64,000 bases of DNA, from contig QHXQ01000037.1 of the NCBI GenBank assembly GCA_003223935.1, positions 29,284-93,283 on the forward strand, in the 5' to 3' direction. Positions 36,326 through 41,013 of the stretch are shown in pieces. The number at the start of each line of letters is the position of its first letter. Positions within the stretch are counted from its first letter, which is position 1. The notes beneath the pieces were generated by a model. That model was not told the DNA's origin. It worked only from the letters and a program-made list of their open reading frames with translations, and ran no database searches. Origin of the DNA: Acidobacteriota bacterium (lineage in GTDB: Bacteria > Acidobacteriota > Blastocatellia > Pyrinomonadales > Pyrinomonadaceae). The translations under genes and the position numbers were made by a program.

Positions 36326-38431
36326 CTATTGCTCAAGATGATAAGGCACGCTCGTCACGATGATGCCCTTCTTGAAGAGGAGCGAGCCTTTCAAGAGCAG
36401 CGAGCTTTGGTTGTGCAACAGGTGCTGCCACCACCTTGCGGGCACGAACTCCGGCAAGATTACCGTCACCATCCCGCCTTCGTTCTGCTGGCGCAGCCGA
36501 TTGATGTAGCGCAACAACGGACGCGTCAACGAACGATAAGGCGAAGCCAGCACGACCAAGTTGATCCCAGCGCCCCACTGCGTCCACTTATCGCGCAACT
36601 TCTGCGTCGCCGTCTCATCAATGTCCACATAGACGGCCGTGACGCGATCCGGCGCAATCGCCTTCGCGTATTCGAGCGCCGCGATGACGCCGCGATGCAC
36701 GCCTGAGATCGGGACGACGACCGTGTTGGGTAATGGGCGTAGCTCCGACAATCCTTCGGTCGAGAGTTGCCGTGCGACCAGCAAGTAATGTCTGTGGATG
36801 GAGCGGAACATCACGACGAGGAGCGGTATGACGACCACGACGATCCACGCGCCGTGTATGAACTTCGTCAGGATGAAGACGCAGAGTACGACGAACGTAG
36901 CAATAGCGCCGAGCGCGTTAATAAAGATCGACTTCTTCCAGTGCGGGCCTGACGTAACATCGTCGGCGACAAAAGGCGACTCACGTTCCGTCTCGACGGC
37001 CAGTGTGGCATCGGGCAACGGGCGCACGTGCGCCGTTGCGGCCGCGTCGCTGCTTTGCTGCGCGCCCGTCACAGCACCTGTACTGGATGGAGTTGGCCCT
37101 TGCGGCTCGCGCGGCGCGTCGTTCGGTCTGCGCCCCAATAGCTCGCGGCGCTCCTTGAGCCAGTGCTTGACCATCCCCGACTGCGAGAGCGTGAATGAGA
37201 GGAAGACGCCGACGGCGTAGAGCGGAATCAGCCGGCTCGTGTCGCCGCCGAAGGCGACCACGAGGATTGAAGCGAAGACGGCGAGGATGATGATGCCGTT
37301 TGAGAAGACGAGCCGGTCGCCGCGATTGGCGAACTGGCGCGGCAGGAAACGATCACGCGCAAGCAACGAGGAGAGGCGCGGGAAGTCTGCGAATGAAGTG
37401 TTGGCGGCGAGCACGAGAATCGCGGCCGTCGTTCCTTGCACGAGGTAGTAGAACCAGCCCATCGGGCCCGTAAAAATGTTGCGCGCAAACTGCGAGATGA
37501 CGGTCTCGTTCGCGTGCGGCTGCACGCCGTAGAGCCAAGCCATCACGCTCGTGCCGAGAAACATGATCGTCAGCAGCACCGCCATCCAGACGAGCGTCGT
37601 CGAGGCGTTCTTCGCTTCGGGCTGTTTGAACGCGGGCACGCCGTTTGAGATCGCTTCGATGCCGGTCAGCGCAGCACAGCCGTTCGAGAACGCGCCGAGT
37701 AGCAGGAACAGTGTGAGCGGTTGCACGTGATAGCCTTCGGCGAGCTTCATCGGCTCAGTGCTTGGCGGCGGCGCGCCGTAGAGCTTGTAGTGCAGTAGCC
37801 CGTAGCCGATCATGAAGAGAAACGAGACGACGAAGGCGTAAGTTGGAAAAGCGAAGATCGCGCCCGACTCGCGCACGCCGCGCAGGTTGGCGACGGCGAT
37901 AAAGGCGATGAAGAAGAGACACAATGCGACCTTGTGATCGTCGAGCCAAGCGAAGCGCGTCCCCTGCGCGGCGGACGTGAGCGCGGCCACGCCCGCAGAG
38001 ATCGAGACCGATACAGTCAACACATAGTCAACCAACAAAGCCGCGCCCGCGATGAGGCCGGCGTTCGTGCCCAAGTTATCTTTGGCGACGATGTACGCGC
38101 CGCCGCCTGAAGGGTAAGCGTGAATCGTCTGCCGGTAGCTGATGGTGACGATGACTAAGAGCGTGGCGATGCCGAGCGAGATCGGCACGACGTAATGAAA
38201 CGTATAAGCCTGACCGTAGGCGACGGCGACGGCGAGCACGAGCAGAATTTCTTCCGTCGCGTAAGCTGTGGATGAGAGCGCGTCCGATGAAAAGACCGCG
38301 AGCGCAGTCTTCTTTGAGAGTCGTTCGTGTATCGCTTGCTCTGTGCGTTTAGCGCGGCCGACGAGCAGGCGCTTAATGGCTGTGGCCAATGTCTTCAAGT
38401 CTCCTTGTTCCGCCGCCGCCGCAAAAAGCAA
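36326..38431 (-). CDS. kimA: KimA-type potassium transporter (APC superfamily)
   Basis: SSDALSSTAYATEEILLVLA, SYRQTIHAYPSGGGAYIVAKDNLG, LHNQSSLLLKGSLLFKKGIIVTSVPYHLEQ resemble B. subtilis KimA (YdaO). Confidence 0.9.
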   Translation of the reverse strand: MLFAAAAEQGDLKTLATAIKRLLVGRAKRTEQAIHERLSKKTALAVFSSDALSSTAYATEEILLVLAVAVAYGQAYTFHYVVPISLGIATLLVIVTISYRQTIHAYPSGGGAYIVAKDNLGTNAGLIAGAALLVDYVLTVSVSISAGVAALTSAAQGTRFAWLDDHKVALCLFFIAFIAVANLRGVRESGAIFAFPTYAFVVSFLFMIGYGLLHYKLYGAPPPSTEPMKLAEGYHVQPLTLFLLLGAFSNGCAALTGIEAISNGVPAFKQPEAKNASTTLVWMAVLLTIMFLGTSVMAWLYGVQPHANETVISQFARNIFTGPMGWFYYLVQGTTAAILVLAANTSFADFPRLSSLLARDRFLPRQFANRGDRLVFSNGIIILAVFASILVVAFGGDTSRLIPLYAVGVFLSFTLSQSGMVKHWLKERRELLGRRPNDAPREPQGPTPSSTGAVTGAQQSSDAAATAHVRPLPDATLAVETERESPFVADDVTSGPHWKKSIFINALGAIATFVVLCVFILTKFIHGAWIVVVVIPLLVVMFRSIHRHYLLVARQLSTEGLSELRPLPNTVVVPISGVHRGVIAALEYAKAIAPDRVTAVYVDIDETATQKLRDKWTQWGAGINLVVLASPYRSLTRPLLRYINRLRQQNEGGMVTVILPEFVPARWWQHLLHNQSSLLLKGSLLFKKGIIVTSVPYHLEQ

Positions 38432-38479
38432 GAGGCGCGGAGCATCACGCCCCGCGCCTCGCAGTAAAACTCGCGGCAG

Positions 38480-38695
38480 CCTTGCCCTTCTCTTTCACGC
38501 CTACGAGGTTAGCTGACGGGCTTGGACGGAGAAGTGTCCTAAGCGCGCGTGCGCCATCATGACTGAAAGCGCGCTCGCGCTATACGCCCCGCGACCTGCA
38601 CGAACGGACAGGTCGTGTGGTTCCCCCGCGTCGAACAGGACGACTGTCTTACAGCCCCATCCGACTTCGGCAGACAAACTGTCAACGGCGACGAA
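38480..38695 (-). ncRNA. c-di-AMP riboswitch (ydaO/yuaA class)
   Basis: Minus strand reads CGCCGTTGACAG ... GACGCGGGGGAACCACACGACC ... GGTCGCGGGGCGTATA ... CTTCTCCGTCCAAGCCCGTCAGCTAACCTCGTAGGCGTGAAAGAGAAGGG; the CCCGTCAGCTAACCTCGTAGGCG segment is the hallmark 3' conserved block. Confidence 0.93.
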
Positions 38696-38725
38696 TCTTA
38701 CGCCTGAACGATCAAGCAAAGCAAC

Positions 38726-40711
38726 TCAGCCGCCGACATGCACGATGGGCCGGCGCTCCGGGTCTTCTTCGGCCTGCCTGAGCACTTCGCGCGTGACCGG
38801 CGCTGTGTCGCCTTCACCGAAGATGATGTACCGGAATAGATACTTCAGGGGATTGCCCTCACTCCAGCCGAAATAGACGTGCGGCATCTTGCCGGTCGTA
38901 TCGCGTAGGTGGAGCAGAAGCGCGGCAATAGCGTTCGGCACGGCCGCACTTTCGGTGCGCAACACGCGAAAGCCGTCCACGTCTACGCCGCGCACGCAGA
39001 GTTTGCCCGAAAACTCCGATGCGTCGCCCGTCTTCACTTCAAGAAACAGGATTGGATCGCGCGTCGGAATGTGATTATCCTCGCGCTTCTCACGCTCTTT
39101 GAATTGGTATTCGCTCACGTCACCGCGATCGCAACGATTGGTCACGATGCGTATTTCGTCGCGCTTGCGCGCCACCTCTTCGACGAACGCCCGCGCCTGC
39201 TCATCCAACTCGACGCGCTCAACGCGCAACTCGGTTGTGCGCATGACGCGCGACAGAAACGACGTGAAGATGATCGTGCCGATAAAAAACGAAGCGATCT
39301 TGATCCCTTCAGGCCGTTCGATGACGTTCGCGACGGTCGTGTAGGCGAAGACGAGCGCGATCAGGGCGAACGCCCAAGTCAGCCCGCGCTGCCCCTTGCG
39401 CCAAGTCGAGAGCGTCACCGCGACAGCCGCCGAACTCATCAACACAAGGACGCCCGTCGCATACGCGCCGCCTTGCGCATCCACGTCGGCGTGGAAAATC
39501 CACGTGACGGTGAACGCGACCGCCATGTACACCAGCACGAGCGGGCGTTGCGCACGCGCCCAGTTCGGAGCCATGCCGTAGCGCGGCAGATAGCGCGGCA
39601 CGATATTCAAAAGACCGGCCATCGCCGACGCGCCCGCGAACCAGAGGATCAGGATCGTGCTGATGTCGTAAGCCGTGCCAAAGCCGTTGCCGAAGAATTG
39701 ATACGCGAGATAGGCGAGCGCGCGCCCGTTCGCTTTGCCGCCAGCGTCCACGCCCTCGATGGCGGGGCGAAACTGTTCTGGCGGAATGAGCGTCGTCGTC
39801 ACAAGGCTGCTCGCGATCAGATAGACGCTCATAATGAGCGCGGCGGTGATGAGCAGATGGCGCGTGCCGCGTATGCGCCCCGGCGGTCGTTCCTCAGTGT
39901 CCGTCGGCTCGCCTTTGATCAAAGGCATGACCGCGACGCCGGTCTCAAAGCCCGACAAGCCGAGCGCGAGTTTTGGAAATAACAACAGCGAGACGCCGAT
40001 GATCAGAAGCGGATTGCCGTGCACGCTCGGCGCGGTAAACAGCGCCCCGCGCCAGCGCGCTAACACTTCCATATGGCGCGCGATCTGATAGACGCCATAA
40101 CCAACGACGATCCCGTTCAGCAACAGGTAAGCGCCGACGAGCAAGACGGCGATGCCGATGGCCTCTTTGAACCCTTTGAGGAAGATCGCGCCCAGCAGCG
40201 CGATGAGCGCGAGCGTCAGGTAGATGCGATGCGCGAAGAAGGCCGGCATGTAAGGATTCTCGATCAGGTGCGCGGTGGCGTCGGCCGCCGAGAGCGTGAT
40301 CGTGATGATGAAGTCTGTGGCGACGAAGCCGAGCAGGACGAGGACGAAGAGTTTGCCCCGCCAGCGCGTCAGCAGATGTTCAAGCATCGCAATCGAGCCT
40401 TCGCCGTGTGGGCTTTCGACGGCGACGCGGCTGTAGATCGGGTATGCGCCGAAGAGTGTGAGCAGCACGAGGATCAAAGTGGCGATGGGCGAGAGCGCAC
40501 CGGCGGCGAGGAAGGCGATGCCCGGTTGATAACCGAGCGTCGAGAAATAGTCCACGCCAGTCAGACACATCACCTGCCACCAAGCATGCGCCCGATGGCG
40601 TGCGTGCGCCGCTTGCTCATGCGGCCCTTCAGGCAGTTCAGTCGTACCTTCATACAACCAACGCTTGAACGGGCTGAGCCTCTTTTTGCGCGGGGCGGTT
40701 AGCCCAACCAT
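38726..40711 (-). CDS. APC family permease with cytosolic C-terminal domain
   Basis: [60 protein letters not shown]; multi-TM. Confidence 0.85.
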
Positions 40712-40930
40712 CGGCGGCCTCCGAAGCTAAGCAGAGTTGGCAGGAGCTTAAACTGAAACGTGTCTGAGCCTGAACAGAGTGACCGGCCGGCGCCGCGCCC
40801 GGACAGCATTGTGCGGCCGGCGTTGTACCCGCACAATACACGCGCCCGGTCTCACAGTTCAATTTCACTGCAACTTGCTGCGGTTCAATATACCAATTTT
40901 GTTTCCACGTCAAAGCACATGCCACATATT

Positions 40931-41013
40931 GAGTCGAGAGTCTGGAGTCGAGAGTCTGGAGTTAAGAACTTTTATCTTCTGACTCCAGACTCTCAACTCC
41001 AGACTCCTGACTT
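40931..41013. repeat. heptamer inverted tandem repeat (GAGTCTG family)
   Basis: gagtcga gagtctg gagtcga gagtctg gagttaa ... ctgactc cagactc tcaactc cagactc ctgactt. Confidence 0.92.

Follow-up and report, generated by a model that had tools for sequence, protein, structure and literature searches.

A c-di-AMP riboswitch precedes a kimA homologue in an Acidobacteriota genome and very likely acts as an OFF switch for potassium uptake

The stretch of DNA analysed here, 64,000 nucleotides from an Acidobacteriota bacterium (hereafter the window), carries on one strand the gene for an un-named permease (UP661), a c-di-AMP riboswitch aptamer, an intrinsic terminator and kimA, in that order (Table 1). 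Analysis of the whole window with cmscan at the gathering thresholds gave a single Rfam match, RF00379, whose score is well above the family's gathering score of 38 bits. The match covers model positions 1-134 and the aptamer is thus complete and full-length; its conserved core blocks are intact across the full model, and the same aptamer was recovered when the genome was searched with RF00379. It is 200 nt long, compared with the 134 positions of the model, because of insertions in its loops. The minimum-energy fold of the leader, computed without pseudoknots, did not recover the aptamer as such.

Table 1. Features of the kimA leader and its flanking genes, with the second riboswitch of the genome
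Feature	Position	Strand	Basis or remark
UP661, un-named KimA/KUP-like permease, 661 aa	38726..40711	minus	profile, fold, most K+-site residues
Possible -35 element TTGCTT, spacer 18	38719..38724	minus	weak consensus match; putative
-10-like element TAAGAT of leader promoter	38695..38700	minus	position conserved across loci
c-di-AMP riboswitch aptamer (RF00379, ydaO/yuaA leader)	38483..38682	minus	cmscan 66.4 bits, E 3.4e-13
CCUCGUAG, aptamer 3' strand, candidate antiterminator partner of 38464-38457	38501..38508	minus	sequence; putative
CUGCGAGG, base of terminator left arm, complementary to 38508-38501	38457..38464	minus	sequence; putative
Intrinsic terminator stem-loop, 13 pairs, loop of 3, GC-rich	38432..38460	minus	expression platform
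Shine-Dalgarno-like AAGGAG	38401..38406	minus	sequence
kimA, K+/H+ symporter, 687 aa from TTG 38389	36326..38389	minus	phmmer, contact residues, homologous starts
Second c-di-AMP riboswitch of the genome	L005 7282-7099	minus	RF00379 64.6 bits

An earlier note on this DNA had placed a c-di-AMP riboswitch at 38480-38695, between two permeases and before a kimA homologue. Our analysis confirmed the riboswitch: the ydaO/yuaA blocks are present on the minus strand within 38300-38900, the RF00379 match that the note had proposed as a test was obtained, and both flanking genes are as it described them. The interval does hold the aptamer; its limits were refined to those in Table 1, and the expression platform lies just 3' of it. 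Neither of the two absences that the note had named against its reading, of an RF00379 match and of a diadenylate cyclase in the genome, was found, because RF00379 matches and the genome encodes a cyclase. That this aptamer would bind c-di-AMP and switch is what we infer from its membership of the RF00379 family.

The terminator lies directly 3' of the aptamer and is followed by a U-rich tract that runs to about 38422; the two make up an expression platform between aptamer and kimA. A terminator-like hairpin is also found 3' of the aptamer in most of the loci of related genomes. RNA duplex prediction found eight base pairs between CCUCGUAG and CUGCGAGG, a candidate antiterminator. In this GC-rich context the duplex is no stronger than chance, as 23% of shuffled left arms pair equally well, and in 54 loci the mean shuffle fraction was 0.55, with a value below 0.05 at one locus only. 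Because the pairing is no better than shuffles here or across the relatives, it is kept as a candidate.

Comparison of the loci also revealed a TANNNT element whose last nucleotide lies 10-12 nt 5' of the aptamer; 38 of the 57 loci have it, the window's included, whereas other positions gave a mean of 2.9 loci and a maximum of 12. The conserved position of this element makes it probable that the leader is transcribed from a promoter of its own. TAAGAT alone is a weak match to the sigma-70 consensus (shuffle fraction 0.23), as is the promoter taken as a whole, and the possible -35 element lies directly 3' of the UP661 stop codon.

The gene downstream of the riboswitch is a kimA homologue, as had been claimed. 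Its product matched B. subtilis KimA (PDB 6s3k/8b70/8b71) with 520 bits (E 8e-155, phmmer); the match to 6s3k consists of two stretches, 18-428 and 498-700, and includes both the membrane and the cytosolic domains. Pfam AA_permease_2 was matched as well. The open reading frame caller gave kimA as 36326-38431, with a TTG start at 38431 that coincides with the terminator. Homologous KimA proteins begin with VATSIKRLLVG (L084), VATSVKRLLVG (L092) and MAVSIKRLLVG (L050), and these starts, together with the Shine-Dalgarno-like AAGGAG, place the kimA start at TTG 38389; since the relatives start at the equivalent position, KimA is about 687 amino acids long. Residue roles were taken from published work on KimA (PMC6994465, PMC10284832) and mapped through the B. 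subtilis KimA alignment, which revealed identity at 19 of 19 contact positions. These comprise the K+/H+ residues D36, Y43, D117, Y118, T121, S125, T230, E233, N237 and Y377 and the c-di-AMP contacts R337, V457, L461, P479, V506, H579, N580, Q581 and S582. Among the mapped residues, differences are confined to F565, R587 and W592, which belong to the cooperativity network. Since the c-di-AMP pocket is kept, c-di-AMP probably inhibits the transporter directly as well, as judged from these residues.

The upstream gene, UP661, matched no Pfam or NCBIfam family, and no PDB chain was matched by sequence or profile. Alignment of UP661 with the KimA profile by hhalign gave a probability of 96.4% (E 1.1e-9), with about 21% identity in the aligned part. 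The predicted model of UP661 (pLDDT 72.5) had KimA as its top three PDB matches in Foldseek (E 1.9e-13 to 1e-10, TM about 0.5), and general APC-fold transporters ranked after it. The equivalents of KimA D36, Y43, T121, S125, Y377 and R337 are invariant in 20 UP661-family sequences. KimA T230 and E233 map to UP661 S253 and E256 in hhalign but not in MAFFT, and the residues of the C-terminal c-di-AMP pocket of KimA are not evidently present in UP661. Elsewhere in the window, at 40930-41013, a long hairpin between two genes triggered only sub-threshold eukaryotic miRNA models; it is probably a dispersed inverted repeat.

The UP661 family is present in 50 of the 60 related genomes. Its members lie directly upstream of an aptamer and co-directional with it in 12 of the 57 loci, and directly downstream of one in 12 of 57 (in one case after a 104-aa open reading frame). 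Deinococcus, Thermus and Streptomyces plasmids also carry family members, annotated there either as 'amino acid transporter' or as 'APC family permease'; a mechanosensitive channel, TMEM175 and CorA are among their neighbours. RF00379 was found in none of six regions around plasmid-borne relatives (Deinococcus, Granulicella, Streptomyces, Arthrobacter), and the riboswitch link is therefore not universal in the family. In the genome of the window, no RF00379 match lies upstream of UP661 even at E 10. Because 12 of the 57 aptamers have a member of this family as their next gene, the family is probably one of uncharacterised K+ importers, and for UP661 itself K+ import would be the most parsimonious function. 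On profile, predicted fold and residues, UP661 is probably a second K+ importer beside KimA that is annotated as an amino acid transporter. We lean slightly towards the wider view that UP661 founds an un-named KimA/KUP-like branch of K+ importers that is widely distributed across Acidobacteriota, Deinococcota and Actinomycetota and mis-annotated as amino acid transporters; in Acidobacteriota, c-di-AMP riboswitches would have this branch as one of their major direct targets.

Judged from the nearest named relatives of its KimA, the genome probably belongs to subdivision 4/Blastocatellia. The earlier note had also stated that no disA or cdaA gene lies in the window, and none was found there. The rest of the genome (assembly G000) contains exactly one DAC-domain gene, which encodes a CdaA-type diadenylate cyclase with a CdaA_N domain (DAC domain 142-145 bits) and is followed by YbbR/CdaR and then GlmM, the order CdaA-CdaR-GlmM. 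Exactly one more RF00379 copy is present, before kdp genes. On its 5' side lie the C-terminal part of kdpD, kdpE and mgtC; on its 3' side lie a small open reading frame, a 795-aa APC permease, two unassigned genes and then kdpA, kdpB, kdpC and the N-terminal part of kdpD, a locus that extends to L102 5031. Thus kdpD is split into two genes on opposite sides of the riboswitch locus. Here kdpA was called by Pfam, and kdpB, kdpC and the N-terminal part of kdpD by inspection of reading frames. The assembly is 88% complete and absences in it are therefore soft.

A total of 57 copies of RF00379 were found in 34 of the 60 related genomes, and a diadenylate cyclase in 58 of 60. All 57 loci were retrieved and oriented for comparison of neighbours. 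Apart from the UP661 family, KimA occupies the first place 3' of the aptamer at 13 loci and KUP (PF02705) at one, and several loci continue with kdpA or genes adjacent to it; other aptamers precede solute-binding genes, ABC genes and FAD-NAD enzymes. These targets (KimA, KUP and Kdp among them), together with the spread of the aptamer and the cyclase, support the suggestion that c-di-AMP would control K+ uptake in this lineage. The KUP gene (L067 3790-5721, minus strand) lies directly 3' of its aptamer in the row aptamer-UP661-aptamer-KUP, the UP661 gene just upstream having an aptamer of its own. An unexpected type of target was seen at L054, L070 and L080, where the aptamers lie directly 5' of FAD-NAD(P)-binding (PF13454) genes.

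Among the 57 aptamers, twelve (L051, L053, L055, L057, L058, L060, L061, L068, L075, L078, L081 and L083) form a separate class, whose region runs from roughly 160 nt upstream to 175 nt downstream of the aptamer. Most of them lie after a cytochrome-oxidase operon (UbiA/COX3/DUF420), and at 11 of the 12 the downstream genes are convergent, with no sense gene; the exception is L057, where an M28 peptidase gene in sense orientation follows a strong terminator. A promoter-like element and a 3' tail are both conserved in the class; the tail is made up of a hairpin with a U-tract, GUCUUCUC and, at its end, a strong terminator. When a covariance model was built from this tail, it gave strong matches (83 bits or more) in about 30 same-family genomes among 116 relatives, one per genome, and no strong match in the 88% complete assembly of the window's genome. 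Judged from these features, the class looks like a candidate free-standing c-di-AMP-responsive regulatory RNA, which is put forward as a lead and not as a result.

The aptamer, the terminator, the order and identity of the genes, the conservation of residues and the presence of a cyclase were established directly. We consider it very likely that the c-di-AMP (ydaO-class) riboswitch in the kimA 5' leader is a transcriptional OFF switch for K+ uptake. Ligand binding, the direction of switching, the antiterminator, the use of the promoter and inhibition of the protein are the steps that we infer, as follows. Transcription would begin at the promoter in the gap 3' of UP661, and the nascent leader RNA would fold the aptamer. 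The ligand would be made by the CdaA of the genome, and its level should go up under K+ sufficiency. With c-di-AMP bound, CCUCGUAG would be held in the aptamer, the GC-rich hairpin would form and the polymerase would stop before kimA. With c-di-AMP low, CCUCGUAG would be free to pair with CUGCGAGG, the terminator would be disfavoured and kimA would be made. The ligand probably also acts on the KimA protein directly, through the kept pocket.

The reading of the leader as a unit with its own promoter has to be weighed against an arrangement in which UP661 and kimA form a two-gene operon and the riboswitch is an internal attenuator of read-through, with no leader promoter of its own. The two genes are co-directional, only 43 nt separate the UP661 stop from the aptamer, and at the 12 of 57 loci given above the gene next upstream, read in the same direction, is UP661. 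The -10-like element, however, is fixed in position at 38 of the 57 loci, some of which have an unrelated upstream gene, and we regard the operon arrangement as rather unlikely.

The direction of switching is a separate matter. Sequence gives no certain direction and the antiterminator is without statistical support, points that would also suit a genetic ON switch in which the ligand prevents termination; yet an aptamer separate from a complete terminator is the layout of an OFF switch, and in the members that have been studied c-di-AMP leads to termination (PMC9337991, PMC6488665, PMC10117811), which makes an ON switch very improbable. Slightly less probable again is a decayed or repurposed aptamer that no longer senses c-di-AMP. 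The highest-scoring relatives reach 87 and 96 bits, above the 66.4 bits found here, but the core blocks are intact over the whole model, terminator and kimA are intact, the cyclase is present and 34 of the 60 relatives have RF00379, in 57 copies. The OFF switch in the kimA leader remains our preferred reading.

The riboswitch and KimA are of known kinds; this instance adds a member from an uncommonly studied phylum, and we make no claim that the class is new to that phylum. A Bacillus-type circuit, in which c-di-AMP shuts K+ import at the RNA level and probably at the protein level, would in this way be extended to Acidobacteriota, a major phylum of soil. The association with riboswitches also gives the UP661 family, which lies outside curated libraries, a testable function in K+ import.

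In comparison with known systems, UP661 resembles the KimA/KUP K+/H+ symporters in profile, in fold and in the invariant equivalents of several KimA residues listed above; unlike these, it falls outside every Pfam and NCBIfam model. In B. subtilis, kimA and ktrAB are under c-di-AMP control (PMC10284832). The leader described here shares with that of B. subtilis kimA (ydaO) the aptamer family, a terminator-type platform and the target gene, and KimA shares the K+ and c-di-AMP contact residues. It differs in its GC-rich Acidobacteriota host, in its long loop insertions and in having an un-named KimA-like permease, UP661, as neighbour of kimA. One published list names six phyla with predicted c-di-AMP riboswitches on K+ transporters, Acidobacteria not among them, and the same paper reports the pairing of riboswitch and kdp as apparently restricted to Bacillales (PMC6488665). 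In B. thuringiensis, termination before the kdpFABC operon is promoted by c-di-AMP (PMC6488665); the second riboswitch of our genome likewise precedes genes of this K+ importer, whereas here the small open reading frame, the APC permease and the two unassigned genes intervene before kdpA-kdpB-kdpC and the riboswitch adjoins KdpE and a two-part KdpD. In the tandem c-di-AMP riboswitch of Dehalobacter, the 3' nucleotides of the aptamer are proposed to pair, without ligand, with the left shoulder of the terminator (PMC9337991), and rpfA of Streptomyces is a studied c-di-AMP OFF switch (PMC10117811). The layout in the window, a complete aptamer, a separate terminator and then the gene, is that of B. 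thuringiensis kdpFABC, Streptomyces rpfA and the Dehalobacter tandem riboswitch.
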